Of a DNA stretch of 16,227 nt, positions 3,420 through 16,159 are shown piece by piece. This stretch comes from an uncultured Desulfobacterales bacterium (GTDB lineage: Bacteria; Desulfobacterota; Desulfobacteria; Desulfobacterales; G020354645): the NCBI GenBank assembly GCA_947259865.1, contig CAMYNZ010000134.1, positions 1 through 16,227 of the forward strand, read 5' to 3'. Below the pieces are notes generated by a model. It saw only the letters and a list, made by a program, of their open reading frames with translations, was not told the origin of the DNA and ran no database searches. Within the stretch, counting starts at the first letter, position 1. Each line of letters opens with the position of its first letter. A program made the position numbers and the translations under genes.

Positions 3420-3592
3420 GTGTCCTCCCCATGGAGCGTAATTGCTGTCCTAAAGAGATGCCCAGGTGAAGTATGATCTACAAGCGAAATATAGCTCAAA
3501 GCTCAAAGCAAAAAGATGATTATATCCATTGTTTCTGGATTCTGGGGTCTAACTTCATTCATAGAAAGTTTGGCCCTTTGAAGAGGGTTGTA

Positions 3593-4155: not shown

Positions 4156-5382
4156 TTATTGCAGGGTCTTCCACAGATTCCAGAACCGGGGAAATGATTT
4201 GTTGACACAGCCTTTGTTTTTTATATTCAAACCGGGCACATTCAATGCAACCACGGCAAGGGCCATGGCCAGGCGGTGATCGTTATAGGTGTCTGCCTTG
4301 ACTCCATGCAGTTTGCGGTCGCCCTGGATGATCAGCCCGTCCGGCAGCTCCTGTATTTGACCTCCCAGTCGACGCCACTCGCTGGCGACCGCTTTTAAAC
4401 GATCACTTTCTTTGTGTCTGAGATGGGCAACATTTCTAATAACTGTCCGGCCTCTGGCAAAAAGGGCAATTGCCGCCAGGGTCGGCACCATATCGGGCAT
4501 GGTATTCATATCCGCATCAATCCCGCAAAGTGGACCGCCGCTAACGGTTACATGACCCGTTTGGCTTTGGACATGACAGCCCATTTTCTCGAGAATATCG
4601 AGAAAACGGATATCTCCCTGGCGGGTAGTTTGGGGGTGTATATTCTGAGTGGTCACGGACCCGCCGGTCACGGCTGCAGCGGCCCAAAAATAGGAAGCAC
4701 TTGATACATCCCCCTCAACGCTGAAGGGGCAGGCCTGATATTTGCTGTTGTCAGGAATTTTATAATAATGATAACCCTCACGGATCACGCAAACCCCGAA
4801 TTGAGCCATCACCTCAATGGTCAAATCCACATAAGGCCGGGAGACCACCTGCCCGGTGACCTCGATCTCCATAGCATTTTCAGCATAGGGCCCTGCAAGC
4901 AGCAAAGAGGAAACAAACTGGCTGCTTTGATTTCCGGGGATGGTTACCTTCCCGCCGGGGATGACCCCCGATTGGATGCGAACCGGAGGATAACCTTTTT
5001 TTTCAGGACAGACCGCTTTGACCCCCATCCGGCTGAGGGCGCTGACCAGCCCGCCAATCGGTCTAGCCTGCATACGGGGGGTACCGGTAAGGATATATTC
5101 TCCCCGAGACAGGGCCACTGTAGAAAGAAGGAGACGAAAGGATGTCCCCGAATTGCCCACATATATTTCTTTTGAGCGATCAAAATGAGACAATTGCCCC
5201 CCTGCTCCCACAATTTGAGCATCATCTCCGTCTAACAGAATCTCGATTCCCAAATCCCGGAGGCCAGCGACCGTGTATAGTGTGTCCTCACAGACGAGCA
5301 CATTCTTGAGCCGGCTGACACCCCTCGCCAGCCCTGCGGCAATCAGTGCCCGGTGGGGCGGTCTGATTTGAATCGGTTCCAT
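4156..5382 (-). CDS. aroA: 3-phosphoshikimate 1-carboxyvinyltransferase (EPSP synthase) lacking the N-terminal PGSKS segment
   Basis: EPSP synthase joins PEP to shikimate-3-phosphate, the sixth shikimate step. Of 408 residues nearly all family motifs are present: GNSGTSFR at 76-83, the M-x-x-R-P-I element at 104-109, SSQF at 153-156, SRPYVDLT at 181-188, GDVSSAS at 224-230, MPDMVP with the catalytic Asp at 295-300, KESDR at 324-328, NDHR at 367-370 and KSFP at 395-398. The start is ATG 5382 behind GGGAGGGTT. The N-terminus runs MEPIQIRPP directly into HRALIAAGLARG, whereas relatives have a strand and then PGSKS-x-T before the H/NRAL segment. The lost stretch includes the Lys and Ser that contact PEP and shikimate-3-phosphate. 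The gap is in frame, about 6 to 20 residues by comparison with typical 425-residue homologues. The identity is sure; activity is doubtful. Last gene of the aro cluster. Confidence 0.92.
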   Translation of the reverse strand: MEPIQIRPPHRALIAAGLARGVSRLKNVLVCEDTLYTVAGLRDLGIEILLDGDDAQIVGAGGQLSHFDRSKEIYVGNSGTSFRLLLSTVALSRGEYILTGTPRMQARPIGGLVSALSRMGVKAVCPEKKGYPPVRIQSGVIPGGKVTIPGNQSSQFVSSLLLAGPYAENAMEIEVTGQVVSRPYVDLTIEVMAQFGVCVIREGYHYYKIPDNSKYQACPFSVEGDVSSASYFWAAAAVTGGSVTTQNIHPQTTRQGDIRFLDILEKMGCHVQSQTGHVTVSGGPLCGIDADMNTMPDMVPTLAAIALFARGRTVIRNVAHLRHKESDRLKAVASEWRRLGGQIQELPDGLIIQGDRKLHGVKADTYNDHRLAMALAVVALNVPGLNIKNKGCVNKSFPRFWNLWKTLQ

Positions 5383-5439: not shown

Positions 5440-5580
5440 TCACGCCAAGACGCCAACATTCTCACGCTAAGACGCTAAGGCGCCAAGGGCAGATAAGTTT
5501 AGTAAAGTTAAGATTAATTTTGTTATTCTTTGCGGTCTTTGCGGCTTTGCGTGAAATCTTCATAAAAGTCTCACGCTTTT
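5440..5580. repeat. Octamer-based palindromic repeat between aroA and aroE, copy 1
   Basis: The left arm has octamers ACGCCAAG and ACGCCAAC (5442-5457), then ACGCTAAG, ACGCTAAG and GCGCCAAG in tandem (5464-5487). The right arm has CTTTGCGG, CTTTGCGG and CTTTGCGT (5528-5552), the reverse-complement theme. The arms could fold into a long imperfect hairpin around an AT-rich centre. The last codons and stop of aroE (5560-5577) lie inside the element. A related copy in inverted orientation lies at 16170-16227. Confidence 0.75.
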
Positions 5581-6387
5581 CAGGGACTGCTCCACTGCCC
5601 CGCTCATAGCCTTGAACGGGGGATCCATTCCAGTCCATATCCTGAATTGCTCGGCCCCCTGATGGATAAACATGCCCAGGCCGGTTATGGTCAGACATCC
5701 TCTGGATTCGGCCATTTTTAACAGCCTGGTTTCGATAGGATTATAAATGATGTCCATTACCAGCATGCCCTCCCGCAGCACATGTTCAGGGACCGGACAG
5801 GCGTTGTCACCGGGAGCCATTCCTACCGAGGTGGCTTGAATCAAAATATCCGCATCCTCTGCTGCCAGATCATCCAGAGCAAGGTAGGGACAGGCAAGAA
5901 ATTTGGCCAGTTCCCGGCCCCGCTCGGGTGTGCGGTTGGCCACCTTCAGCGTCACACCTTTTTGTTTTAAGATAAAACCGATAGCACGCGCCGCACCCCC
6001 TGCCCCGACCAATATACATGTTTTACCCGATAGCTGGATCTTTTCCTCCAGCGCCTTGAGAGCGCCGAGTGCGTCCGTGTTATAACCGACCAGATGGCCG
6101 TTTACATTTACGATGGTATTGACGGCACCGATCTGATGCGCCAGATCATCCACTTCATCAAGATAGGCGATGACCGCTGATTTATGCGGCAGGGTAACGC
6201 TTATGCCCCTGATGCCGAATGCGCGTATACCTGTAATGCAGTCTCGCAAATCATTGGTCTCAAAGGCAAGATAAACGGCATTCAGGCCACTGGCAGCAAA
6301 TGCAGCGTTGTGCATGCTGGGGCTCAGGCTGTGGACCAGGGGGTAACCCACAACAGCGTACAGAGTTGTTCTTTGATCGATGATCAC
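5560..6387 (-). CDS. aroE: Shikimate dehydrogenase (NADP+)
   Basis: This enzyme reduces 3-dehydroshikimate to shikimate. The 275-residue protein has the shikimate-binding SLSPSMHN at 20-27, the catalytic lysine in LPHK (K69), AVNT at 88-91, GYNTDA at 101-106 with D105, the nucleotide-binding GAGGAARA at 128-135, the NADP-favouring NRTPER at 151-156, TSVGM at 186-190, and GLGMFIHQGAEQF at 236-248. The usual N-V-T before the catalytic lysine is S-V-T here. The GTG start at 6387 overlaps the aroD stop by 4 bases (GTGA), implying translational coupling. The last few residues (SVRLL) and the stop are encoded by the neighbouring repeat, so the C-terminus may have been remodelled by its insertion. 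Confidence 0.95.
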   Translation of the reverse strand: MIIDQRTTLYAVVGYPLVHSLSPSMHNAAFAASGLNAVYLAFETNDLRDCITGIRAFGIRGISVTLPHKSAVIAYLDEVDDLAHQIGAVNTIVNVNGHLVGYNTDALGALKALEEKIQLSGKTCILVGAGGAARAIGFILKQKGVTLKVANRTPERGRELAKFLACPYLALDDLAAEDADILIQATSVGMAPGDNACPVPEHVLREGMLVMDIIYNPIETRLLKMAESRGCLTITGLGMFIHQGAEQFRIWTGMDPPFKAMSGAVEQSLKSVRLL

Positions 6388-7052
6388 GGTGCCAATACCT
6401 CCAGCAGGTGCTTCATTTCGGCGGCGGGGATCTGCCCGTCGGCAGATTCCTCCCCGGCTTCCAGGGAGGCAAAGGTCACATAGCCACCCATCAAGTGAGA
6501 CAGCACCCGACCGACCCTGCCCAGGGGCCCCATGCAGAAAGCGATAATCCGGATGTCACGGTCATGGGCCAGGGAGATAAGATCGAGCAATCGAAAATTG
6601 TCCGTCCATTTTTCAGCCCGGGTAACGATCTTGACAATATCCGCGCCGGCAGAGATGGATTCGTCGAGAATCTTTTCCAGGCTTGCCTGTGAAGGAGTTG
6701 GCCCCTGAATATGGGTGGAAATGATGATCCCCGATTGACCCCGGGCATTAAAAATTCTTTCCCGCCATTTAAGCGGCAGCCACAATTCCACATCCACCAG
6801 ATCGGCACCCAGTCGCAGGGCCGCCAATGCATATTGGGTGTAGGTATCAGGATCGACACTCCCCTTCCCGCCTTGATTTTTTGAACGGTAGGTTACCAGT
6901 ACCGGTTTATCGGCCCTTTGAAGAATTCTGCGTAAATCAAAGCTGTCCATAAGATCAAGACGTATTTCCAGCATTTCTGCCAGCCGGTTGGCCCGAATGA
7001 TCCTTTCAAGGGCTGCCTCGGTGTTGTTGGCTATTATCGGGATACAGATCAT
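6384..7052 (-). CDS. aroD: 3-dehydroquinate dehydratase, type I
   Basis: This 222-residue class I enzyme dehydrates 3-dehydroquinate to 3-dehydroshikimate through a Schiff base. Visible residues are E29-x-R31-x-D33, R56 in VTYRS, catalytic H114 in STHIQG, Schiff-base K141 in ADIVKIVT, then MGPLGRVGRVLS at 174-185 with R182, and the substrate-closing loop with Q207. The length is usual for the class. ATG 7052 has no clear Shine-Dalgarno sequence. It follows tyrA after 191 bp containing repeat copy 1, and its stop overlaps the aroE start. Confidence 0.95.
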   Translation of the reverse strand: MICIPIIANNTEAALERIIRANRLAEMLEIRLDLMDSFDLRRILQRADKPVLVTYRSKNQGGKGSVDPDTYTQYALAALRLGADLVDVELWLPLKWRERIFNARGQSGIIISTHIQGPTPSQASLEKILDESISAGADIVKIVTRAEKWTDNFRLLDLISLAHDRDIRIIAFCMGPLGRVGRVLSHLMGGYVTFASLEAGEESADGQIPAAEMKHLLEVLAP

Positions 7053-7243: not shown

Positions 7244-8017
7244 CTATTCAATATTCATTCTGAGCTTATTGAGAAACTTCTCCATCTCCTCGTGATCTCT
7301 ACCTTTTATAATATGGGTCAGATAGGCCAGTCGTGAATTAATCTCTTCAATCTGCCTTATGGTAAGCGGGTTGAACATAATCTCCGCCAGCAGGTGATCA
7401 TCTTCGGAAAGAACACCTTTGGCAATACCCAGATGTTTTCTAAAAGTGGAGCCCGGTGCTTCCTGTTTTTTCATACAGGCGGCAAATACCATTGACGAGG
7501 CAAAAGGAATCGAGAGGGAATACGCCATTGTTTTATCATGTTCTTCGAAAGAATACTCATAAATACTAAGCTTGAGGCCCTGATAGAAATCCCGGAAAAA
7601 AGTTTTCCCGTCCTCATCTGATTCTTTAATGAGGATCGCATTTTCATCACGCAGGTCTCTGATATTGGCAAAAGTGGGGCCGAACATGGGATGGGTAGAG
7701 ACAAATTTTTTTCCTAATTTTCGGTAGTACTCAGGCAAATCCGTTTTAACCGAAGCAATATCTGAAAGAATACAGTCTTCGGGCAGATACGGCAAAACAT
7801 CCTCAAATGCCTTCCGGATATGGGTAAGATCCACTGCATTAACCACCAACTCGGGTTCAAAGGCCTTTACTTCAGAAAGATCCATCAGCCTTTGAACGTT
7901 AAAAAAGTATTTGAGCTTTTTTTTGTCCGTGTCGTAAACAGCAACCTGGTGATCGAGACAGAACTCCTCTACTAACCAGGCGCCCATATGGCCGGCTCCC
8001 AGAATAAAAATTCTCAT
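7244..8017 (-). CDS. tyrA: Prephenate dehydrogenase
   Basis: This enzyme oxidatively decarboxylates prephenate to 4-hydroxyphenylpyruvate for tyrosine. The start at ATG 8017 is preferred over a GTG at 8041: it overlaps the pheA stop by 4 bases (ATGA), sits behind GAGAGGAAGG, and places the dinucleotide-binding motif ILGAGHMG at residues 5-12. The 257-residue protein has D29 after the second strand, the catalytic histidine in THPMFGP (H109), and HDKTMAYSLSIPF at 160-172, followed by the all-helical dimerisation domain. There is no fused chorismate mutase and no C-terminal ACT or other regulatory domain, so feedback by tyrosine is not evident from the sequence. Confidence 0.92.
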   Translation of the reverse strand: MRIFILGAGHMGAWLVEEFCLDHQVAVYDTDKKKLKYFFNVQRLMDLSEVKAFEPELVVNAVDLTHIRKAFEDVLPYLPEDCILSDIASVKTDLPEYYRKLGKKFVSTHPMFGPTFANIRDLRDENAILIKESDEDGKTFFRDFYQGLKLSIYEYSFEEHDKTMAYSLSIPFASSMVFAACMKKQEAPGSTFRKHLGIAKGVLSEDDHLLAEIMFNPLTIRQIEEINSRLAYLTHIIKGRDHEEMEKFLNKLRMNIE

Positions 8018-9069
8018 ATGACCTTCCTCTCTTTGTAACACCCCATCAGCCTGAAGCTGCGGGTAATCTCTTTTATCGCATCCAGGGCCTCGACCACATT
8101 TTTATCCTTGTTTGATCCGACAAAATCGAGAAAGAAAGCATAGCTGCCCGGTTCATCAGGTATAGACTCAATCCGGGTCAGGTTGATATTATTTTTGGCA
8201 AACACCTCGAGCACCCGGAATAGTGTGCCGGCCTTGTGTTCGGTGGAAAAAACAATGGAGCATTTATCACCTTCCTCCCGATTTTTCTCTTTTGAAAGCA
8301 CAATGAATCTTGTCAAATTTCGATCAAGGTCTTCTATGTCCTCTTTTAGAATCTCAAGATTATAAAGCTCTGCCGATAGCCGGCTGGCAATTGCAGCAGA
8401 CGCTTTGGGTCTTGTTTCCATCAACATTTTTGCCGCCCCGGCCGTATCATGATACTGTATGGGATCAAGCTTGTTGCGGGCCAGAAATTGACGACACTGG
8501 GCCAGGGCCTGGGGGTGCGAGTAAACCGCATGGATCTCTCTGTGGTCGGTTTCAGGCAGGGCCAGCAGACAAAGGCTGATGGGAAGTTCAACCGCCCCCA
8601 CAAAATTGAGATCGCTATTGATAAGGAGCTCATTGACCGTGCCCACGATGCCGCCAAGGGTGTTTTCTACCGGAACGATGCCAAAGTCATAAAGCCCGTC
8701 TTTGACCCCTTCAAATACACCGGCAAATTCGCGGCACGGTATGGGAATTAAATCGCTGTTCCACTTCCTTGAAGCTACCTCGCCGTAGGCGCCGTGTTCC
8801 CCCTGGAAAGCAATAAGCTCCCAGTCGTTTTGCTGAAGATGTTTGCTTTCCTTGATGATTTCAGTATAAATCTTTTCAACAAAATCAGCATTAATCAGCC
8901 CGCTTGAATTCTTTCTGATTCTTTCCAGGACCTCGGTTTCTCTCTGGCTGTCTTCAATCTGGGATTTAAATTTTTTGGTCAACAGAACCTGTTCCATTCT
9001 ATCTTTCAAAAGTTTCAAAATTTCAGAATCCAGCAGGTCAATGTTTTTTCTGATCTTTTCCAAATTCAT
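8014..9069 (-). CDS. pheA: Bifunctional chorismate mutase / prephenate dehydratase (P-protein)
   Basis: It converts chorismate to prephenate and then to phenylpyruvate. Of 351 residues, 1-80 form an AroQ-type chorismate mutase helix bundle (R7, D11, R24, K35 and E51-R52 region), 84-262 the prephenate dehydratase with FQGEHGAYGEVA at 88-99, PVENTLGG at 133-140, SHPQALAQC at 184-192 and the catalytic TRF at 253-255, and 270-345 an ACT domain. In the ACT domain the Phe-binding GALV and ESRP motifs of the family read GTLF (281-284) and ESIP (301-304), so Phe inhibition may be altered. ATG 9069 sits 5 bases behind GAGGTG. It overlaps tyrA by 4 bases. A 292-bp repeat-rich gap separates it from aroB. 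Confidence 0.95.
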   Translation of the reverse strand: MNLEKIRKNIDLLDSEILKLLKDRMEQVLLTKKFKSQIEDSQRETEVLERIRKNSSGLINADFVEKIYTEIIKESKHLQQNDWELIAFQGEHGAYGEVASRKWNSDLIPIPCREFAGVFEGVKDGLYDFGIVPVENTLGGIVGTVNELLINSDLNFVGAVELPISLCLLALPETDHREIHAVYSHPQALAQCRQFLARNKLDPIQYHDTAGAAKMLMETRPKASAAIASRLSAELYNLEILKEDIEDLDRNLTRFIVLSKEKNREEGDKCSIVFSTEHKAGTLFRVLEVFAKNNINLTRIESIPDEPGSYAFFLDFVGSNKDKNVVEALDAIKEITRSFRLMGCYKERKVI

Positions 9070-9175: not shown

Positions 9176-9250
9176 GCAATAGAGTACTGGTGTGTTGGTA
9201 TTACAATCCTATAAAGTACACGATAAGTGACTGTTGCGAGTTGCGTGTTT
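9176..9250. repeat. 75-bp direct repeat, copy 2 (between pheA and aroB)
   Basis: This is the partner of 7149-7223 in the same orientation, identical at 56 of 75 ungapped positions. It lies about 107 bases upstream of the pheA start in the direction of transcription, nearly the same distance as copy 1 from aroD. The two copies thus bracket the pheA-tyrA pair. Its end merges with the heptamer array at 9233. Confidence 0.7.
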
Positions 9251-9303
9251 CGAGTTGCGGGTTAAAAAATTGAACGCGCAACACGTAACGCGTAACCCGA
9301 AAC
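9233..9303. repeat. Inverted arrays of a GTTGCGN heptamer
   Basis: The left arm reads GTTGCGA, GTTGCGT, GTTTCGA, GTTGCGG, GTT without interruption (9233-9263). The right arm (9273-9303) read on the other strand gives GTTTCGG, GTTACGC, GTTACGT, GTTGCGC, GTT. The two four-and-a-half-unit arrays face each other across a 9-base spacer and could form a hairpin. The rest of the gap up to the aroB stop (9304-9361) shows nothing recognisable. Confidence 0.75.
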
Positions 9304-9361
9304 GATTGCTTTTACCAACAATCGCCAAGATTCTTTGACCTTGCCGAACCACCGACCCAAT

Positions 9362-10411
9362 TCAAGCACCGGCAGCGCATTTCCGACACAATTTATTTGT
9401 GACAGTCTTTAATTCCTCCAATGATATCTCCTCCACAACGGCATTGCCCAGACCGTGCAGCAACACAAAATCGATCCTGTCCCCTTTTCTCTTTTTATCC
9501 TTTTTGAGTGCATTCAGCAGCTGGCCTTCATTTGTTTGAAGTCTGGTAGGAAGTTTTAATTTTTGAAGCAGCTTCTCTATTCTTTCTGCTTCCCGGGGCG
9601 CCAACAAGCCTTTTTTAACCGATAAGGTCGCAGCCAGCACCATACCGACAGAGACGGCCTCGCCATGGGGGACACCTGTTGTTTTTTCGATCGCATGTCC
9701 GAATGTATGGCCGAAATTGAGCTTTTTGCGTTGCCCTCTTTCTCTTTCGTCCTGATTTACGATTGACGATTTTAAGCGCACGGAGTCATAAACAAGATTT
9801 TGGATGATTTCGGTATCAAGCCCGAGTGCTTTTTGATAATTTTGTTCAAGATAAAGAAACAGATCGGCATCTCCAATGGCGGCGTGCTTTACAATCTCTG
9901 CCAAACCGCATCGAACTTCTTTTTGGGGCAGTGTTTTTAGAAGTGCAAGGTCGCATATAACAAACTCGGGTTGGCTAAAAACACCGATCAAATTTTTGTA
10001 TCCGCTAAAATTCACACCGTTTTTGCCACCGACACTGGCATCCACCTGGGCCAGCAGTGTGGAGGCAACAAAACCAAACCGCAAACCGCGTAAATACGTT
10101 GATGCAGCAAAACCGGCTATATCACAAACGATACCGCCGCCGATCCCGACCACAAAGGAAGAACGGTCGGCAGCAAATCCCATCAGTTTTGCATATACGG
10201 ACTCAACCGTAAGCAGGTTTTTTGACGCTTCGCCGATGCCGACCTCTATAATATTATGAAACCGGAGATCGTCTTGATAGTAGTATCTGACATTGGCGTC
10301 AGTGATAATCACCGTTTTATCTGCAGGTATGTATTTTTTTAGATTGCGCAGGCGTTCACCGATCATTATGGTTGATTCCTCGGCCGCGCCCTGAATTTCA
10401 AAAACTTTCAC
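9362..10411 (-). CDS. aroB: 3-dehydroquinate synthase
   Basis: It cyclises DAHP to 3-dehydroquinate using NAD+ and a divalent metal. The 349-residue protein has the NAD-binding VVGIGGGIVCDIAGFAAS at 87-104, the active-site STLLAQVDASVGGKNGVN at 117-134, KNLIGVFSQP at 139-148, and the metal ligands E172, H235 (in NFGHTFGHA) and H249 (in PHGEAV); K175 and R228-K230 are also in place. Length and motif order match the family. The start is GTG 10411 with only a weak GGGT-like ribosome site about 9 bases upstream. A start farther upstream would add non-family residues. Confidence 0.95.
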   Translation of the reverse strand: MKVFEIQGAAEESTIMIGERLRNLKKYIPADKTVIITDANVRYYYQDDLRFHNIIEVGIGEASKNLLTVESVYAKLMGFAADRSSFVVGIGGGIVCDIAGFAASTYLRGLRFGFVASTLLAQVDASVGGKNGVNFSGYKNLIGVFSQPEFVICDLALLKTLPQKEVRCGLAEIVKHAAIGDADLFLYLEQNYQKALGLDTEIIQNLVYDSVRLKSSIVNQDERERGQRKKLNFGHTFGHAIEKTTGVPHGEAVSVGMVLAATLSVKKGLLAPREAERIEKLLQKLKLPTRLQTNEGQLLNALKKDKKRKGDRIDFVLLHGLGNAVVEEISLEELKTVTNKLCRKCAAGA

Positions 10412-10725: not shown

Positions 10726-11553
10726 CTAATTAAAGGTACTCTCCTGATTCATGTGGCTGCGCAAAGCTGTTAGACGCCGCATCAGGTTGGCAAACATTTC
10801 GGGCGGCATGGCCTGGTCTTTATCACATATGGCCTCGGCCGGATTATAATGCACTTCGATAATGATTCCGTCTGCACCGGCTGCCATGGCAGCAAGGCTC
10901 ATGGGTTCAATGAGGCTGAGCCTCCCGGTACCGTGAGACGGATCAACAATGATGGGAAGGTGCGATATCTCTTTGACTGAAGGGACAATGCTCAGATCCA
11001 GCGTATTTCTGGTATAGGTCTCAAATGTCCGAATGCCTCTTTCACAAAGAATAACGTTGGGGTTTCCTTCCGCCAGTATGTATTCTGCGCAATTGAGCCA
11101 TTCTTTGAGAGTGGAATACATCCCTCTTTTCAAAAGAACCGGTGTATCAACCTTCCCCACCTCTTTGAGAAGTGAGTAGTTTTGCATGTTTCGGGTACCA
11201 ATCTGCAGCACATCCGCATATTCGCACACCCAGGACACGTCGCGCGGATCGGTAACCTCCGTAACTACCGGTAGACCGGTCTCTTTTTTAGCTTTTTCAA
11301 GAATTTTGAGCCCCTTGAGACCAAGCCCCTGGAAGTCATAGGGTGACGTTCTCGGTTTAAATGCACCGCCCCGAAGCATATTGGCACCTGCATCTTTGAC
11401 TTTGCGGGCGGTTCCGATGGTTTGCGCTTCACTCTCAACGCTGCAGGGACCGGCGATAACAACAAAATCCTCGCCGACTTTCACATTATCGATCGTGATT
11501 ACCGTGTGTTTCTTATTGTCGCCATTTAAGGCTGCAAGTTTTAAGTTTGTCAT
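10726..11553 (-). CDS. aroF: 3-deoxy-7-phosphoheptulonate (DAHP) synthase, type I-beta, core domain only
   Basis: It condenses PEP with erythrose-4-phosphate, the first committed step. The 275-residue protein is a bare TIM barrel of the KDO8P synthase-like I-beta class: AGPCSVES at 34-41 with metal ligand C37, [16 protein letters not shown] at 61-76, QIGTRNMQN at 117-125, KRG at 142-144, CERGIRTF at 170-177, DPSHGTG at 204-210 and E233-x-H235. There is no N-terminal ferredoxin-like/ACT domain or fused chorismate mutase, which are the parts that give Phe/Tyr or prephenate/chorismate inhibition in this class. ATG 11553 has GAGGAG about 11 bases upstream. It starts 27 bp after the aroC stop. The symbol aroF is a conventional choice; aroG is equally used for such proteins. 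Confidence 0.92.
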
Positions 11554-11580: not shown

Positions 11581-12723
11581 TCATTGTGGATCACTCTCAT
11601 TTTTTTGGTCTTTGTGGATCGCTCCGCCCACAGAGATAGCGTTTTCGGAAACATCCTGATGTCCGGAAACATCTGATATGGCAATCGATCTTAAATAGTG
11701 ATCTGCCAGGGCTATCCTGACCATGGCTTCCAAAACCGGAACGATGCGCGGCAGGGCGCATACATCAAACCTGCCGGTGAACTTCAGCCTGGCGGAACGC
11801 CCTTGCCGGTCAACCGTATCCTGATTGCGGTTGATGGAGGGAATCGGTTTTATGGCAATTCTCAGAACAATTTCGTCCCCATTAGAGATTCCCCCCAGGA
11901 TGCCGCCGGCACGATTTGACAAAAACCCTTCGGGGGTCAGGGGGTCATTGTTTTCCGAACCCTTGAGCCGCGCCGCTTCAAAACCGGCGCCGATCTCGAC
12001 CCCCTTAACCGTGCCGACAGACATGAGCGCCTTTGCCAGATCGGCATCCAGTTTGTCAAAAACCGGTTCACCCAGACCCGCCGGGCAGCCGCAAACCCGA
12101 ACCTCGGCCACGCCACCCAGCGAATCGGCTGTCTTTCTGGCATTTGCAAGAGCTGCTTGCATTTGCTGTGATGCGATCGGGTCCGGACAAAAAAGGGGAT
12201 CTTTGTCGATGGTCTCCAGATCGATGTTTTTGACACGAATCCCGCCAAGTTCAACGGTATAGCCCCTTACCGTTACCCCCAGCGGATCCAGGATTTTAGC
12301 GGCCACGACACCGGCAGCCACCCTGGCTGCCGTCTCCCTGGCAGAATACCTTCCACCTCCGGTGTAATCAAAATGACCGTATTTTTTATAGTAGGTGTAA
12401 TCGGCATGTCCCGGTCGGAAAAGCTGCCGCAAAACTTCATAGGGACGGCTGTTGGCATCCCGGTTTCGAATAAAAAGAGTGATGGGAACGCCGGTGGTCA
12501 GACCCTCGAACACGCCGGAAAGGATTTCCACCTGGTCGGCTTCTCGGCGCGGGGTATCCGAAGCGCTTCTCCCGGGTCTGCGCCGGGCCATTTGGAGTGT
12601 AAAATCCTGCGACGACAGCGTGAGCCGGGGGGGGCATCCATCAATCACCACCCCAACACCTTTTCCGTGGGATTCCCCAAAGGTGCTGATTTTAAAAATC
12701 TCTCCAAACGAATTTCCAGCCAT
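11581..12723 (-). CDS. aroC: Chorismate synthase
   Basis: This FMN-dependent lyase makes chorismate from EPSP, the last shared step. The 380-residue protein has NSFGEIFKISTFGESHG at 4-20 with catalytic H19, RRRPGRS at 47-53, H106 in RPGHADYTY, GGRYSARETAARVAAG at 123-138, SNRAGGILGGISNG at 269-282, and GRFDVCALPRIVPVLEAM at 317-334. The last motif has RFDVC where many relatives have RHDPC, a variation that occurs in the family. ATG 12723 starts 4 bp after the aroK stop, and its ribosome site (GGGGGT) lies inside aroK, so the two are probably translationally coupled. Confidence 0.96.
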   Translation of the reverse strand: MAGNSFGEIFKISTFGESHGKGVGVVIDGCPPRLTLSSQDFTLQMARRRPGRSASDTPRREADQVEILSGVFEGLTTGVPITLFIRNRDANSRPYEVLRQLFRPGHADYTYYKKYGHFDYTGGGRYSARETAARVAAGVVAAKILDPLGVTVRGYTVELGGIRVKNIDLETIDKDPLFCPDPIASQQMQAALANARKTADSLGGVAEVRVCGCPAGLGEPVFDKLDADLAKALMSVGTVKGVEIGAGFEAARLKGSENNDPLTPEGFLSNRAGGILGGISNGDEIVLRIAIKPIPSINRNQDTVDRQGRSARLKFTGRFDVCALPRIVPVLEAMVRIALADHYLRSIAISDVSGHQDVSENAISVGGAIHKDQKNESDPQ

Positions 12724-12727
12724 ATGT

Positions 12728-13255
12728 CTACCCCCGGGCTTTTTCAGGCAGATTGCGGAAGATTAAATCGACGACTTTCTGAATTGAAAGGGTGCTGGTA
12801 TCAATCTTGAAGTTGCCGGCCCGTTCGTAATAAGGGTGCCGGTCTGCCAGGACCTCTGCAATCTCTTGGATGGCATCCGCACCGGTCAGCGATGGTCGAG
12901 CCTTCCCCCTGGCTTGATCTTTGGCCATTCTTTGAGCAAGCGCTTCAGGTGTCCCGTTGAGCCAGACCATCCAGGCATTTGTCTTTAAATTTTTCAGATT
13001 GTCTTCATCCAGCACTGCCCCGCCACCGGTTGCAATCACCTGATTGTTTTTTGCGGTTATCGCTTTTATCAGCTTTTTCTCCATCTTCCGGAAATGATGC
13101 CAGCCGCTCCCGGCAATCATCGTCTCAATAGAGCATCCGGCATATTCTTCGATCGACGTGTCCGTATCAACGAAATCCTTTCCCAATCTATTGGCAAGGA
13201 TTTGGCCGACGGCTGTCTTCCCGCTGCACCGATAACCTATCAATACGATATTCAT
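12728..13255 (-). CDS. aroK: Shikimate kinase
   Basis: It phosphorylates shikimate at the 3-hydroxyl with ATP. The 175-residue protein shows the P-loop GYRCSGKT at 7-14 (Cys where Gly is usual), the Mg/shikimate Asp in VDTD (29-32), R56 in FRKME, ATGGGAV at 75-81, the lid arginine region ARPSL at 119-123 and R145 in PYYERA. The length is typical. It is the first structural gene after the attenuator: the leader terminator ends about 47 bp upstream. ATG 13255 has no strong Shine-Dalgarno site; GGGTG is the nearest candidate, about 11 bases away. The symbol aroL would be equally valid by function. Confidence 0.94.
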   Translation of the reverse strand: MNIVLIGYRCSGKTAVGQILANRLGKDFVDTDTSIEEYAGCSIETMIAGSGWHHFRKMEKKLIKAITAKNNQVIATGGGAVLDEDNLKNLKTNAWMVWLNGTPEALAQRMAKDQARGKARPSLTGADAIQEIAEVLADRHPYYERAGNFKIDTSTLSIQKVVDLIFRNLPEKARG

Positions 13256-13302
13256 TGGTTTATAACACCCGATTTAAAAAATCCGACAGGCGTTCATAAA
13301 AT

Positions 13303-13335
13303 AAAAAAAGCCGTGGGTTGAGGGGCCCACGGCTT
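13303..13335 (-). terminator. Attenuator terminator of the aro operon
   Basis: On the minus strand AAGCCGTGGG, loop CCCCTCAA, CCCACGGCTT is a perfect 10-bp stem followed by a run of T residues that continues the stem's final TT (A run at 13303-13309 on the plus strand). It lies between the leader-peptide stop and aroK, so it must be bypassed for the operon to be expressed. Confidence 0.93.
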
Positions 13336-13386
13336 GAAATTAAAAACGAATTTGTTTTAATCAACCCATGGGCACACCCCTCCCAT
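13311..13386 (-). promoter_or_regulatory. Alternative leader-RNA structures: pause hairpin and antiterminator
   Basis: Hairpin 1:2 pairs ATGGG (13386-13382), overlapping the last Tyr codon of the leader peptide, with CCCAT (13372-13368). The antiterminator pairs CCATGGGTTGA (13371-13361) with TCAACCCACGG (13321-13311): an 8-bp perfect block, one A/C mismatch, then two more pairs. The antiterminator takes the loop and 3' arm of the terminator, so the two cannot coexist. A ribosome stalled on the Phe/Tyr codons would cover region 1 and free region 2 for antitermination; a ribosome that reaches the stop codon would cover region 2 and allow termination. Confidence 0.8.
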
Positions 13387-13444
13387 AAAAATAAAAGAAG
13401 AAATAAAAGCTCAGCCAGGATTGATTGTTTTTTGTATTTAACAT
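13361..13444 (-). CDS. Aromatic leader peptide of the aro operon attenuator, 27 residues
   Basis: Read codon by codon on the minus strand, ATG 13444 follows AAGGA with a 5-base spacer and the frame ends at TGA 13363-13361 after 27 codons. It has Trp at residue 10 (TGG) and an unbroken run FYFFFYFY at residues 13-20 (five Phe and three Tyr codons), so 9 of 27 residues are aromatic. It lies 26 bases before a strong terminator and upstream of genes for Phe and Tyr synthesis. The peptide has no expected function of its own; its translation senses charged tRNA-Phe and tRNA-Tyr, and perhaps tRNA-Trp. It is analogous to the pheL and trpL leaders of enteric bacteria but governs the whole shikimate pathway. 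A chance ORF with this composition in this place is unlikely. Confidence 0.9.
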   Translation of the reverse strand: MLNTKNNQSWLSFYFFFYFYGRGVPMG

Positions 13445-13483
13445 GACTTTCCTTTCCATAACTATTTTAGCATGGAACCTTTT

Positions 13484-13512
13484 CATTTAGATGAGGAAAC
13501 CCGGTGTGTCAA
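13484..13512 (-). promoter_or_regulatory. Promoter of the aro operon leader
   Basis: A perfect TTGACA (13512-13507) is followed by a 17-bp spacer and TAAATG (13489-13484), a moderate -10. An A/T tract lies directly upstream of the -35 (13513-13530), as in UP elements. Transcription would start near 13477, giving about 33 nt before the leader-peptide ATG. Confidence 0.6.
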
Positions 13513-13840: not shown

Positions 13841-14758
13841 ATGAACAAACCGGGTGAATTTTCCAGCATTGATATCATCCAAAACCAGCTGGCAGAAAAT
13901 CGATACATTACGGACCAAGCGCTGGCTACGGTACTTTATCTCTCCTATCATCTCCACAAGCCCTTATTTTTGGAAGGGGAGCCCGGTGTCGGCAAAACCG
14001 AGGTGGCACTTGTTCTTTCGGAAATTCTTTCCACCAAACTGATCAGACTTCAGTGTTATGAGGGCCTGGACGCCAATACCGCCCTGTACGAATGGAATTA
14101 CCCCAAGCAGCTGCTTCGCATTAAAATGGATGAGCAGTGCAGCCAGTCTCCGGAAGAAATGGGCCATGTGATATACACCGAGCCTTATTTGATAAAACGG
14201 CCGCTGCTTGAGGCCATCCTCAGTTCCCAGGGAAACACACCGGTGCTTTTAATCGATGAACTGGATCGTGCCGACGAGGAATTCGAAGCATTTCTGCTTG
14301 AAATCCTTTCCGATTTTCAGGTGTCCATCCCTGAAATCGGAACCCTGAAAGCAACTTACAAACCCATGGTGGTGATAACATCCAACCGAACCCGGGATAT
14401 CCACGATGCCCTCAAACGACGCTGCCTGTATCACTGGATCGAATATCCTGATCTGGACAAAGAGATGAAGATCATCCGGGCCCGGGTGCCCGGCATTGAA
14501 GAATCTCTGGCCCATCAGGTTGCCATCTTCATGCAGAACATCCGTCAGGAAGATCTTATAAAAAAACCCGGAATATCCGAAACGCTGGACTGGACGGAGG
14601 CACTTCTCAAGCTGAATCGCAATATCCTGGATGAAGTGACCGTCGAACAAACCCTCGGTTGCATCCTTAAATACCGTGAAGATATTCAAAAGTTCAAATC
14701 AAACATCTGGACCGACCCGGTTAAAAGGACGCAACTTCTAACGTCGTATTTAAAATGA
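13841..14758 (+). CDS. MoxR-family AAA+ ATPase (CoxD-like)
   Basis: This 305-residue protein starts at ATG 13841 behind AGAGGA. It has Walker A GEPGVGKT at 46-53, Walker B VLLIDELDRAD at 135-145, sensor 1 in VITSNRTRD (N182) and an arginine-finger region ALKRRC at 190-195, followed by the C-terminal lid. MoxR ATPases work with VWA-domain partners as chaperones that mature metalloenzymes or assemble complexes; the closest style here is the CoxD group. The VWA gene directly downstream fits that pairing. No CO dehydrogenase or other client is visible, so the client is unknown. The stop codon TGA is the first three bases of the inserted MITE-like element. Confidence 0.9.
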   Translation: MNKPGEFSSIDIIQNQLAENRYITDQALATVLYLSYHLHKPLFLEGEPGVGKTEVALVLSEILSTKLIRLQCYEGLDANTALYEWNYPKQLLRIKMDEQCSQSPEEMGHVIYTEPYLIKRPLLEAILSSQGNTPVLLIDELDRADEEFEAFLLEILSDFQVSIPEIGTLKATYKPMVVITSNRTRDIHDALKRRCLYHWIEYPDLDKEMKIIRARVPGIEESLAHQVAIFMQNIRQEDLIKKPGISETLDWTEALLKLNRNILDEVTVEQTLGCILKYREDIQKFKSNIWTDPVKRTQLLTSYLK

Positions 14759-14979
14759 GGGGTCGGGGTGTTTTTTTCACGGCAAGATGATCGCCCCGGT
14801 GCTTCTAATGGGCAGAGGGTTATTGCCGCCGAGAAAGGCAAAACACGGGGTCGGTTCTTGTTGGAGTGAAAGTTTTAAATAGCCGGCAGTAAAATGCAAG
14901 GCAGTTGCCGCTGTTGGGTTTGGCAGGCAACAACCCGGCATCTTGCCGTGAAAAAAATACCCCAACCCCTGATTTAAAA
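14748..14979. mobile_element. MITE-like element, 216 bp, with terminal inverted repeats and target duplication
   Basis: The element spans 14756-14971. Its ends form an inverted repeat of about 34 bp (14756-14789 against 14939-14972) with 31 positions identical, including the shared stretch TTTTTTTCACGGCAAGATG. It is flanked by the direct repeat ATTTAAAA at 14748-14755 and 14972-14979, an apparent 8-bp target duplication. It contains no transposase or other plausible gene, so it would be non-autonomous. The family is not recognised. It separates the MoxR and VWA genes and supplies the MoxR stop codon. Confidence 0.8.
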
Positions 14980-14983
14980 TAAT

Positions 14984-16159
14984 ATGTTAGATAAGATTCC
15001 AGACAATTCCCTTCAATCCGATGACGGCCTGATCGTAAATATCGCCCGCTTTTCAAACCTGTTGAGAGACAACGGCTTGACGGTCTCTCTGCCTGCCGTG
15101 CTGGATATCATTGAAGGCCTGCCCTTGATTGATTTCTCCAACCTGTCGGCATTCCGCTGTTTGCTGCAGGTAAATCTCGTATGCCGCCAAGAAGACATCG
15201 CAAAATTTAACAACTTATTTAATGCCTATTGGCTGCCCGGGGACCGGGCCCGCCTTACAATCCCGGCTGACAATAAAGCCAAAAACAAAGAAGATCAGGA
15301 TTCTGCCGCCAACCAGGTAGATAAAATGGCGGCGTTTCAATTGCCGGAAAACGGCAGACCGCCAACGCTCGTCCAGAATTGGAGTCTTCGCTACAGTCCT
15401 GATGCACTTTCTAAGGCAGGTGAAACGGAAGAACTCCGTTTTGTTGAATCCGAGACCCTCTATGAATCAATCTGCAAATTGCTTCAGCCGCTGAACAAAA
15501 GGCTGAGCCGGCGCTATCAATACACGATCCGCGGGAAAGAAATCAATCTAAGGAGAATCTTGAGAAAAAATATGCAATTTGGAGGGGAATTGATTCTTCT
15601 CGATTTTAAACGGAAAAAAATAAAAAACCGCCGGATATTTTACTTTTGTGATATCAGCGGCTCAATGGATATTTATACCCTGATGATTCTGCAATTCGTC
15701 CACGCGCTCAAACGGGTGGATCGCCGGACCGAAATTTTCTTTTTTTCCACCGACCTTTCCAGAAGAACCGATCAATTTGATTCGAAAGATTTCTCCGCTG
15801 ACCTATCCCGGCTGCCGGAAGCTGTTTCGGATTGGGGCGGCGGTACCCGGATCGGCCACTGCCTGCGACTCTTTAACGAAAGCTACGGCAGACGGATGCT
15901 TTCCGGTAAAGATATCGTTATGATCTTCAGCGACGGGTGGGACCGGGGTGAAATCGATTTGCTCGAAGCCCAAATGGCCCTGCTCAAACGCAAGGCCTAT
16001 AAGATCATATGGTTAAACCCGCTGATCGGCACCCGGGATTACCAGCCGATATGTCAGGGAATGAAAGTCGCCCTGCCCTTCGTGGATTACTTCCTGCCCC
16101 TTGCCAACCCGCATGACCTAAACTTTTTGAGCCGAACACTAGTGAAAATGATGACCTAG
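14984..16159 (+). CDS. VWA-domain protein, CoxE-like partner of the MoxR ATPase
   Basis: This 391-residue protein has a variable N-terminal region (1-165; charged and lysine-rich at 97-113) and a C-terminal von Willebrand factor A domain. Its metal-ion-dependent adhesion site is complete: DISGS at 223-227, T288 in WGGGTRIG, and D317 in IFSDGWD. The strand-helix order and the WLNPL motif after residue 342 match CoxE-like proteins. These act with MoxR/CoxD-type ATPases in maturation of metalloenzymes, and the upstream gene provides that partner. ATG 14984 has no Shine-Dalgarno site of its own. Without the inserted element it would begin one base after the MoxR stop, so it was probably translated by coupling. 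Confidence 0.88.
   Translation: MLDKIPDNSLQSDDGLIVNIARFSNLLRDNGLTVSLPAVLDIIEGLPLIDFSNLSAFRCLLQVNLVCRQEDIAKFNNLFNAYWLPGDRARLTIPADNKAKNKEDQDSAANQVDKMAAFQLPENGRPPTLVQNWSLRYSPDALSKAGETEELRFVESETLYESICKLLQPLNKRLSRRYQYTIRGKEINLRRILRKNMQFGGELILLDFKRKKIKNRRIFYFCDISGSMDIYTLMILQFVHALKRVDRRTEIFFFSTDLSRRTDQFDSKDFSADLSRLPEAVSDWGGGTRIGHCLRLFNESYGRRMLSGKDIVMIFSDGWDRGEIDLLEAQMALLKRKAYKIIWLNPLIGTRDYQPICQGMKVALPFVDYFLPLANPHDLNFLSRTLVKMMT

Follow-up and report, generated by a model that had tools for sequence, protein, structure and literature searches.

Attenuation by leader peptides is best known for the fine control of single end-product branches. In the pheL and trpL leaders of E. coli, mutually exclusive 1:2, 2:3 and 3:4 hairpins are combined with an intrinsic terminator, and the ilvGMEDA and thr leaders carry codons for several amino acids, either the branched-chain ones or threonine and isoleucine. 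Attenuators preceding aromatic supraoperons of Firmicutes are probably of the T-box type rather than leader peptides. Desulfovibrio vulgaris, whose aromatic cluster is considered below, belongs to what we take to be a phylum related to that of the organism described here.

Among the published examples, pheL-pheA and trpL-trpEDCBA of E. coli are given as leader-peptide attenuators in the accessible text of one account (PMC11802643), and the ilvGMEDA and thr operons are named among the attenuated operons in that of another (PMC1183508). In Corynebacterium glutamicum, the AroR leader contains Phe-Tyr-Phe, and stalling raises transcription of the aroF (DAHP synthase) operon; according to the available portions of these reports, the response is to Phe and not to Tyr (PMC11802643, PMC4046766). 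Similarly, attenuators are predicted, in the accessible part of a further source, before the D. vulgaris cluster aroA'-aroB'-aroQ.pheA-aroF-tyrA-[trp operon] and before the aromatic supraoperons of the Firmicutes Enterococcus faecalis and Streptococcus pneumoniae (PMC1173090). The view expressed in the first-pass annotation of the present locus, that known leaders govern terminal branches only, is therefore contradicted by common-pathway cases (PMC11802643, PMC4046766, PMC1173090).

The locus described here comes from a bacterium akin to sulfate reducers and lies in a stretch of 16,227 nucleotides, the whole of which was analysed and is referred to as the window. The leader ORF, all of its signals and the aro cluster that follows are on the minus strand (Table 1). 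The ATG is at 13444 and the stop codon finishes at 13361, and the predicted translation is that of a short ORF with a run of end-product codons, as in leader-peptide attenuators. The Shine-Dalgarno site and the 27-codon leader with a single Trp (codon 10) and FYFFFYFY, as originally read, are thus borne out at 13457-13361 of the minus strand. The window contains one leader with at least eight consecutive Phe, Tyr or Trp codons followed by such a terminator, none of 200 dinucleotide shuffles of the whole window contains any, and the window leader RNA folds better than its own shuffles (z -2.3). Furthermore, across the 39 leaders of the curated set introduced below, 204 of the 226 run codons are aromatic in frame; the two alternative frames give 75 and 73 aromatic codons out of 226.

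Table 1. Features of the leader region and of the downstream aro cluster in the window.
Feature	Position	Strand	Basis
-35 box TTGACA, probable leader promoter	13507..13512	-	sequence and conservation
Candidate -10 TAAATG, 17-nt spacing, poor (3/6)	13484..13489	-	sequence; missed by consensus scan
Alternative extended -10, TGCTAAAAT	13464..13472	-	sequence only
Shine-Dalgarno-like GGAAAGGAAAG, purine-rich, of leader ORF	13447..13457	-	sequence
Leader ORF MLNTKNNQSWLSFYFFFYFYGRGVPMG, 27 codons and stop	13361..13444	-	sequence; similar leaders precede aroK in 38 relatives
Segment 1 (Asn-Gln-Ser-Trp codons), partner of segment 2	13413..13426	-	MFE fold, alignment A4, 76.7% of cells paired
Control codon run FYFFFYFY	13385..13408	-	sequence, frame test, stall scan
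Segment 2 (Val-Pro-Met-Gly-stop region), partner of segment 1 or 3	13360..13375	-	alignment A4, pairing counts
Segment 3, pairing with segment 2 (antiterminator) or segment 4 (terminator)	13323..13336	-	2:3 and 3:4 covariation
Terminator hairpin (segments 3:4), 10 bp, 7 G-C, T-rich after	13308..13335	-	terminator scan, covariation
T tract	13298..13309	-	sequence, terminator scan
aroK, shikimate kinase, first gene	12728..13255	-	NCBIfam shikimate kinase families, top score 145 bits, under the curated cut-offs
aroC, chorismate synthase	11581..12723	-	TIGR00033/NF003793 over cut-off
DAHP synthase (here named aroF)	10726..11553	-	TIGR01361 over cut-off, PF00793
aroB, 3-dehydroquinate synthase	9362..10411	-	TIGR01357 over cut-off
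pheA, chorismate mutase-prephenate dehydratase-ACT	8014..9069	-	PF01817, PF00800, PF01842
tyrA, divergent prephenate dehydrogenase	7244..8041	-	PF02153; no NCBIfam match reaches its cut-off
aroD, type I dehydroquinate dehydratase	6384..7052	-	TIGR01093, 138.8 bits against a cut-off of 139.3
aroE, shikimate dehydrogenase	5560..6387	-	TIGR00507 over cut-off
aroA, EPSP synthase	4156..5382	-	TIGR01356 over cut-off

The TTGACA promoter that had been proposed for the leader stands in one respect and not in another. The hexamer is kept at most 140 nt upstream of the leader start at 38 of 39 loci (shuffles gave a mean of 2.7 and a maximum of 7), with room for a -10 element after it in 37 of the 39, but the consensus scan found no promoter on the minus strand at the leader, and the -10 is poor. 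The assignment of the -35 box therefore leans mainly on its conservation.

A search with AroC yielded 80 loci, the nearest of which (L001, from a Desulfobacterales bacterium MAG) encodes an AroC 78% identical to that of the window. aroK is present at 35 of these loci. The leader and terminator precede it in five (L001-L004, L007), L005 has the terminator alone, and the same rule found no leader at the other 29 of the 35, the contig ending there in L006 and L027. The class to which L001 belongs comprises 85 genomes, 45 of which contain an AroK match at E <= 1e-25, and in 37 of the 45 a leader of the same type and a terminator stand before aroK. Together with L004, from another class, these make 38 relatives, so that the suggested search of related genomes had a positive outcome; with the window they form the curated set of 39 leaders. 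The length of the run and the order of Phe and Tyr vary among them, the aromatic character being kept, and the ends of the peptide are conserved as Q-S-W-Q and G-R-G-L-P-M.

The full leader is absent in eight of the 45 class genomes. Retention of the terminator with loss of the aromatic run, which the first-pass annotation had named as evidence against its reading, is seen in two of the 45 (L005 and L138) and not otherwise. No homologues of aroF, aroB, pheA or tyrA were found in the L005 locus (15.1 kb; terminator at 3435-3527) or in that of L138 (only 3.7 kb), and because of this the two cases are possibly examples of a switch in decay and not a refutation. In L150 the terminator is present and the upstream sequence ends at the contig end, while neither terminator nor leader was seen upstream of aroK in L129, L135, L151, L152 and L154. 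Another aro gene lies upstream of aroK in L151, L152 and L154, and the genome of L154 has a leader with a Phe/Tyr run elsewhere, ahead of an aroC cluster (L195).

Pairing between the four segments was evaluated over alignment A4, which contains 38 of the 39 leaders, L117 being excluded for an internal duplication. The intrinsic terminator lies between the leader and the first gene, as in other attenuators, and its 10-bp stem and T tract were found as described before aroK, at 13335-13308. In A4, 98.3% of the cells of the 3:4 stem are paired, and 28 cells are changed on both sides compared with 6.7 in shuffled alignments, none of 500 shuffles reaching as high. The antiterminator, in which segment 2 takes segment 3 and so excludes the terminator, is paired in 85.4% of cells and has 25 double-changed cells compared with 11.2, again with none of 500 shuffles as high. 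Both counts drop sharply when the partner strand is slid. The competition between antiterminator and terminator that had been read from the window alone is thus upheld by covariation of the 2:3 stem over A4.

Of the three stems for which covariation had been predicted, 2:3 and 3:4 therefore show it, whereas the measures for 1:2 are mixed. This stem joins the N-Q-S-W codons to the P-M-G/D-stop codons, and 76.7% of its cells are paired, compared with 73.7% after shuffling. Double-changed cells number 16 as opposed to 7.5, a count reached in 7 of 500 shuffles, but the pairs affected in this way, 5, do not exceed the 4.8 in shuffles, and sliding the partner by -1 gives 20 double-changed cells compared with 16 in register. 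Divergent leaders, such as L146, L153 and L139, appear by eye to use other complementary registers, which a fixed alignment cannot count. The minimum free energy fold of the full-length window leader consists of 1:2 and 3:4; in free RNA lacking segment 4, 1:2 is preferred over 2:3 in 19 of the 39 leaders, that of the window not being among them. The 1:2 stem is therefore less well supported than the other two. A short 1:2 hairpin around the last Tyr codon, which had been taken as the main one, is not the conserved hairpin and was rejected by the fold, by A4 and by the pairing counts; segment 1 lies earlier, at the Trp codon (13426-13413).

Rfam includes leader families such as Phe_leader and Trp_leader. 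A scan of the window gave no match to any family at the gathering threshold, and a permissive scan gave 10 matches at chance level, no leader family among them. At the gathering threshold, 20 loci matched by R1, an RNA model of the aroK leader, likewise gave none, with the exception of one unrelated cobalamin riboswitch. A T-box riboswitch or another catalogued RNA was accordingly rejected for the window and these 20 loci. The cobalamin riboswitch lies close to an R1 match at L184:1687-1852.

In a stall scan, a ribosome was set with its A site at each codon in turn, the RNA upstream of its leading edge was deleted, and the remainder was folded without segment 4. This edge was assumed to be 12 nt from the first base of the A site, and the picture is thermodynamic, not kinetic; the terminator of L140, drawn short by the script, was used in that form. 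With the A site at codon 1 (29 of 39 leaders), or first at one of codons 2-5 (10 of 39), the antiterminator is able to form, and it continues to do so roughly as far as the aromatic run extends; further advance of the modelled ribosome towards the stop codon abolishes it. The distance of the switch point beyond the last aromatic codon has a median of 2 codons and ranges from -1 to 3 in the 39 leaders. As many as 272 of the 274 Phe, Tyr and Trp codons lie within the antiterminating stretch, the two outside being Trp codons of L117 and L139, and the Trp codon of the window lies within it. Since this stretch spans most of the leader, and begins at codon 1 in 29 of 39, the scan is informative at its 3' end only. 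With that limit to the 3' side, segment 2 is left free in the thermodynamic model when the ribosome stalls at the control codons and is covered once the peptide has been completed.

Taken together, the relatives, the covariation and the stall modelling support the original proposal of a ribosome-mediated attenuator before a shikimate-to-Phe/Tyr cluster, and point to a classical transcription attenuator acting on aroK and, probably, on the whole downstream cluster, a reading to which we assign a probability of about 0.85. In such an attenuator, RNA polymerase and the leader ribosome would travel together. A shortage of charged tRNA-Phe, tRNA-Tyr or, probably, tRNA-Trp would stall the ribosome in the W...FYFFFYFY stretch, where it would block or cover segment 1 but not segment 2, allowing the 2:3 antiterminator to form and transcription to read through into aroK. 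When the tRNAs are charged, the ribosome would instead reach GVPMG-stop and lie over segment 2, so that 3:4 would pair and transcription would stop at about 13300.

The amino acids to which this attenuator would respond probably include all three aromatic ones. Phe and Tyr codons are present in all 39 leaders and Trp codons in 38 of them (L118 has none); when four further aroK or aroC leaders found by R1 (L195, L200, L204 and L223) are included, Trp is present in 40 of 43, L195 and L223 being without it. In 29 of the 39, the Trp codon precedes the run and lies at segment 1. The leader is therefore not one for Phe and Tyr only, as the first-pass annotation would have it. Its further suggestion, that Phe and Tyr alone gate the supply of Trp, is weakened, because the Trp codon is conserved, is located at segment 1 and in the window falls in the antiterminating stretch.

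It is nevertheless possible, although we regard it as rather doubtful, that only Phe and Tyr are sensed and that the conserved Trp codon is a by-product of RNA pairing. In A4, the TGG of segment 1 (columns 10-12) pairs with a CCA of segment 2 (columns 65-67), so pairing alone could keep the Trp codon before the run; in addition, Trp is missing from L118 and from two of the four further leaders, and an independent-pairs test of selection for Trp on the tree, which offered too few supported pairs, was not significant. Conversely, where Trp is missing ahead of the run, it is found within or beyond the run in nine of 10 leaders, compared with 9 of the 29 that do have it ahead (Fisher p 0.002, uncorrected for kinship), although in one of the former nine, L139, it lies in segment 2, outside the antiterminating stretch. 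On a tree of AroK and AroC, moreover, the presence of any Trp requires one change, whereas Trp before the run requires 8. On balance, the distribution of these codons inclines us towards real sensing of Trp.

Downstream of the leader, the genes run in the order aroK-aroC-aroF-aroB-pheA-tyrA-aroD-aroE-aroA on one strand and encode all seven common steps as well as the enzymes of the Phe and Tyr branches. AroK, TyrA, PheA and, by half a bit, AroD fall under the NCBIfam cut-offs, yet match the expected families. No trp genes were seen for this organism within the 16,227-nt window. In the aroB-pheA gap, a repeat-like stretch at 9200-9320 (CGTTACGTGTTGCGCG... CGCAACTCG) resembles dispersed repeats, and no inverted repeats were found in three internal regions of the window. 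Between 3400 and 13320, on both strands, promoter-like sites number 17 (11.6 in shuffles) and terminator-like sites 21 (11.4 in shuffles).

The claim that one leader precedes nine genes holds for the gene set and the strand, while their co-transcription is a matter of inference, because the cluster contains gaps of 177-314 nt and weak internal sites; a single transcript for all nine genes is likely. A narrower reading, which we consider open to question but worth serious attention, is that the leader controls only aroK-aroC, or perhaps the first genes, with the later genes on promoters of their own and no gating of the whole pathway. Four internal gaps (314, 292, 191 and 177 nt) are compatible with this reading, as are a promoter-like site at 7139-7110 (10/12) in the gap preceding aroD and the one intergenic terminator-like site on the operon strand, at 9293-9274, which is weak (6 pairs). 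Furthermore, a second R1 match follows aroC on the same strand in 22 of 47 related loci. The window itself, however, has no second leader, an R1 search having returned the known site, an echo of the terminator on the reverse strand and 3 chance-level matches, and 8 of the 38 relatives have the complete set of nine genes on a single strand of the locus as retrieved, several of the loci being truncated.

Two further explanations dispense with the sensing of tRNA or with the leader itself. The conserved ends of the peptide could suggest general coupling of translation to transcription, assistance to the translation of aroK, or a peptide with a function of its own, in which case there would be no tRNA sensor. 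This we consider very improbable, since these ends are the positions of segments 1 and 2, the run varies in length and in the order of Phe and Tyr but keeps its aromatic character, and the terminator covaries with its competitor. A chance T-rich sequence before an ordinary terminator of the upstream region, suggested by the readiness with which T-rich DNA yields Phe and Tyr codons in so T-rich a region, is ruled out for practical purposes by the 200 shuffles without such a leader, the frame-specific run and the leaders of 38 relatives.

The attenuator before aroK does not appear to stand by itself in this lineage. At a minimum of 16 of the 39 loci, a lower bound because the upstream sequence is short in some, trpE lies head-to-head with the aroK leader at a distance of 333-555 bp, and in 14 of these 16 a short ORF with at least three Trp codons, mostly WWW, is located between the two; the remaining two have two. 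L128, L130, L003, L127 and others have a divergent trpE with its own Trp leader, and two successive GC-rich hairpins occur in several loci. In the window, unlike those 16 loci, the divergent neighbour of the leader is not trpE but an AAA ATPase and, beyond it, a CoxE-like VWA protein (13841-16159, plus strand).

The second R1 matches behind aroC lie 37-206 nt before aroF in 9 of the 22 loci and before an unnamed gene preceding pheA in 11, the latter position being occupied in the L195 cluster by an ADH synthase homologue; in the other two the contig ends after the match. At 17 of the 22 there is an ORF in which aromatic residues make up five or more of ten codons. This second type of leader (for example in L120, L002, L144, L116 and L148) often contains several Trp codons in addition to Phe and Tyr, and mostly GPP near its end. 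These leaders and the divergent Trp leaders before trpE indicate that the lineage makes use of leader attenuation. TrpR (PF01371) was matched above the cut-off in none of the 85 class genomes (one match lay below it), and TyrR (NF008085) at E <= 1e-100 in none of the same 85, E. coli being positive for both and the genomes often probably incomplete.

A search of 395 genomes of the phylum with R1 gave 198 with E <= 0.01, from which no prevalence was taken because most of these matches are weak and R1 responds to ordinary terminators and T-rich sequence as well. Among the 63 listed places at 45 bits or more, 40 were followed, the others including known aroK leaders and second matches near known ones. 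The leaders at these 40 places precede ADH synthase/DHQ synthase II, DAHP synthase, aminotransferases and some unexpected genes, and R1 thereby also flags additional genes that are likely to act in aromatic amino acid metabolism. Trp is not universal in this wider set: it occurs in 2 of 9 leaders with ADH synthase first (4 of 11 when L205 and L208 are included) and in 7 of 8 with DAHP synthase first.

Several of the phylum leaders have distinctive neighbours. A Phe/Tyr leader and terminator stand directly before related proteins in L196, L197 (857 aa), L198, L203, L218 and L228 (about 310-355 aa); the metallo-beta-lactamase fold is assigned by Pfam in L196, L198, L203, L218 and L228 and by similarity in L197. 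The best solved relative of the L203 protein is PqsE (E 8e-19), also deposited as 2-aminobenzoylacetyl-CoA thioesterase, and this kinship suggests a role for these proteins with an aromatic thioester. In L206 and L207, Tyr-rich leaders, with eight consecutive Tyr in L206, precede an ADP-forming acyl-CoA synthetase that possibly serves the salvage of aryl acids into aromatic amino acids. Tandem R1 matches, with starts 185-240 nt apart, occur in L205, L208, G092:C248, G128:C288, G302:C106 and G136:C16; those of L205 and L208 precede an ADH synthase homologue, the next protein being of the TrpE family in L205 and its homologue in L208.

Tentatively, and with somewhat less than even confidence, these observations may be drawn together as a Desulfobacterota lineage that has no recognised TrpR or TyrR and sets its aromatic supply by a set of ribosome-operated attenuators: a Trp-Phe-Tyr leader before aroK-aroC and pathway genes, a second Trp-Phe-Tyr leader in many relatives between aroC and the pathway gene that follows it, and a head-to-head Trp leader before trpE, with Phe/Tyr leaders elsewhere in the phylum before accessory genes such as those for an aminotransferase, an ADP-forming acyl-CoA ligase and a PqsE-like protein.

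No account of this aroK leader family was found in the literature searched, which covered few subscription papers, and the words 'desulf', 'aromatic' and 'phenylalanine' are absent from the main text of the premature-terminator survey of Naville and Gautheret, as far as that text was accessible (PMC2965389). Among the described systems, AroR resembles the window leader in being a leader peptide with Phe and Tyr codons before a common-pathway gene, the transcription of which is raised in the AroR case by stalling (PMC11802643, PMC4046766). It differs in its three control codons, its DAHP synthase operon and its unrelated phylum, and no Trp is mentioned in the available portions of those reports. 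The window system would work like one of the AroR type, but with aroK as the first gene. The D. vulgaris cluster is similar in having common-pathway genes within an aromatic supraoperon for which an upstream attenuator is predicted, but its gene set and order are different, with alternative first steps and trp attached, and it is a database prediction only, for which no leader peptide, codons or stems are described in the accessible text (PMC1173090). The Firmicutes supraoperons are comparable, again from that text, in the attenuation predicted before most of the Phe/Tyr pathway (PMC1173090).

With pheL and trpL of E. coli the window shares a leader ORF with cognate codons, exclusive 2:3 and 3:4 hairpins beside a predicted 1:2 stem, and an intrinsic terminator; those leaders, unlike this one, serve one amino acid each and terminal branches. 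The ilvGMEDA and thr leaders serve several amino acids of the same pathway from one leader, as this one probably does, but are not aromatic. Here the same device seems to act on the shared trunk together with two branches, a single peptide carrying codons for all three end products, and the classical aromatic repressors went undetected in the lineage. The leader offers a compact natural test of how several tRNA signals are integrated by one leader. The kind of switch is known, the aroK leader family is apparently new, and it is unusual for codons for Trp, Phe and Tyr to be combined ahead of the trunk plus two branches.
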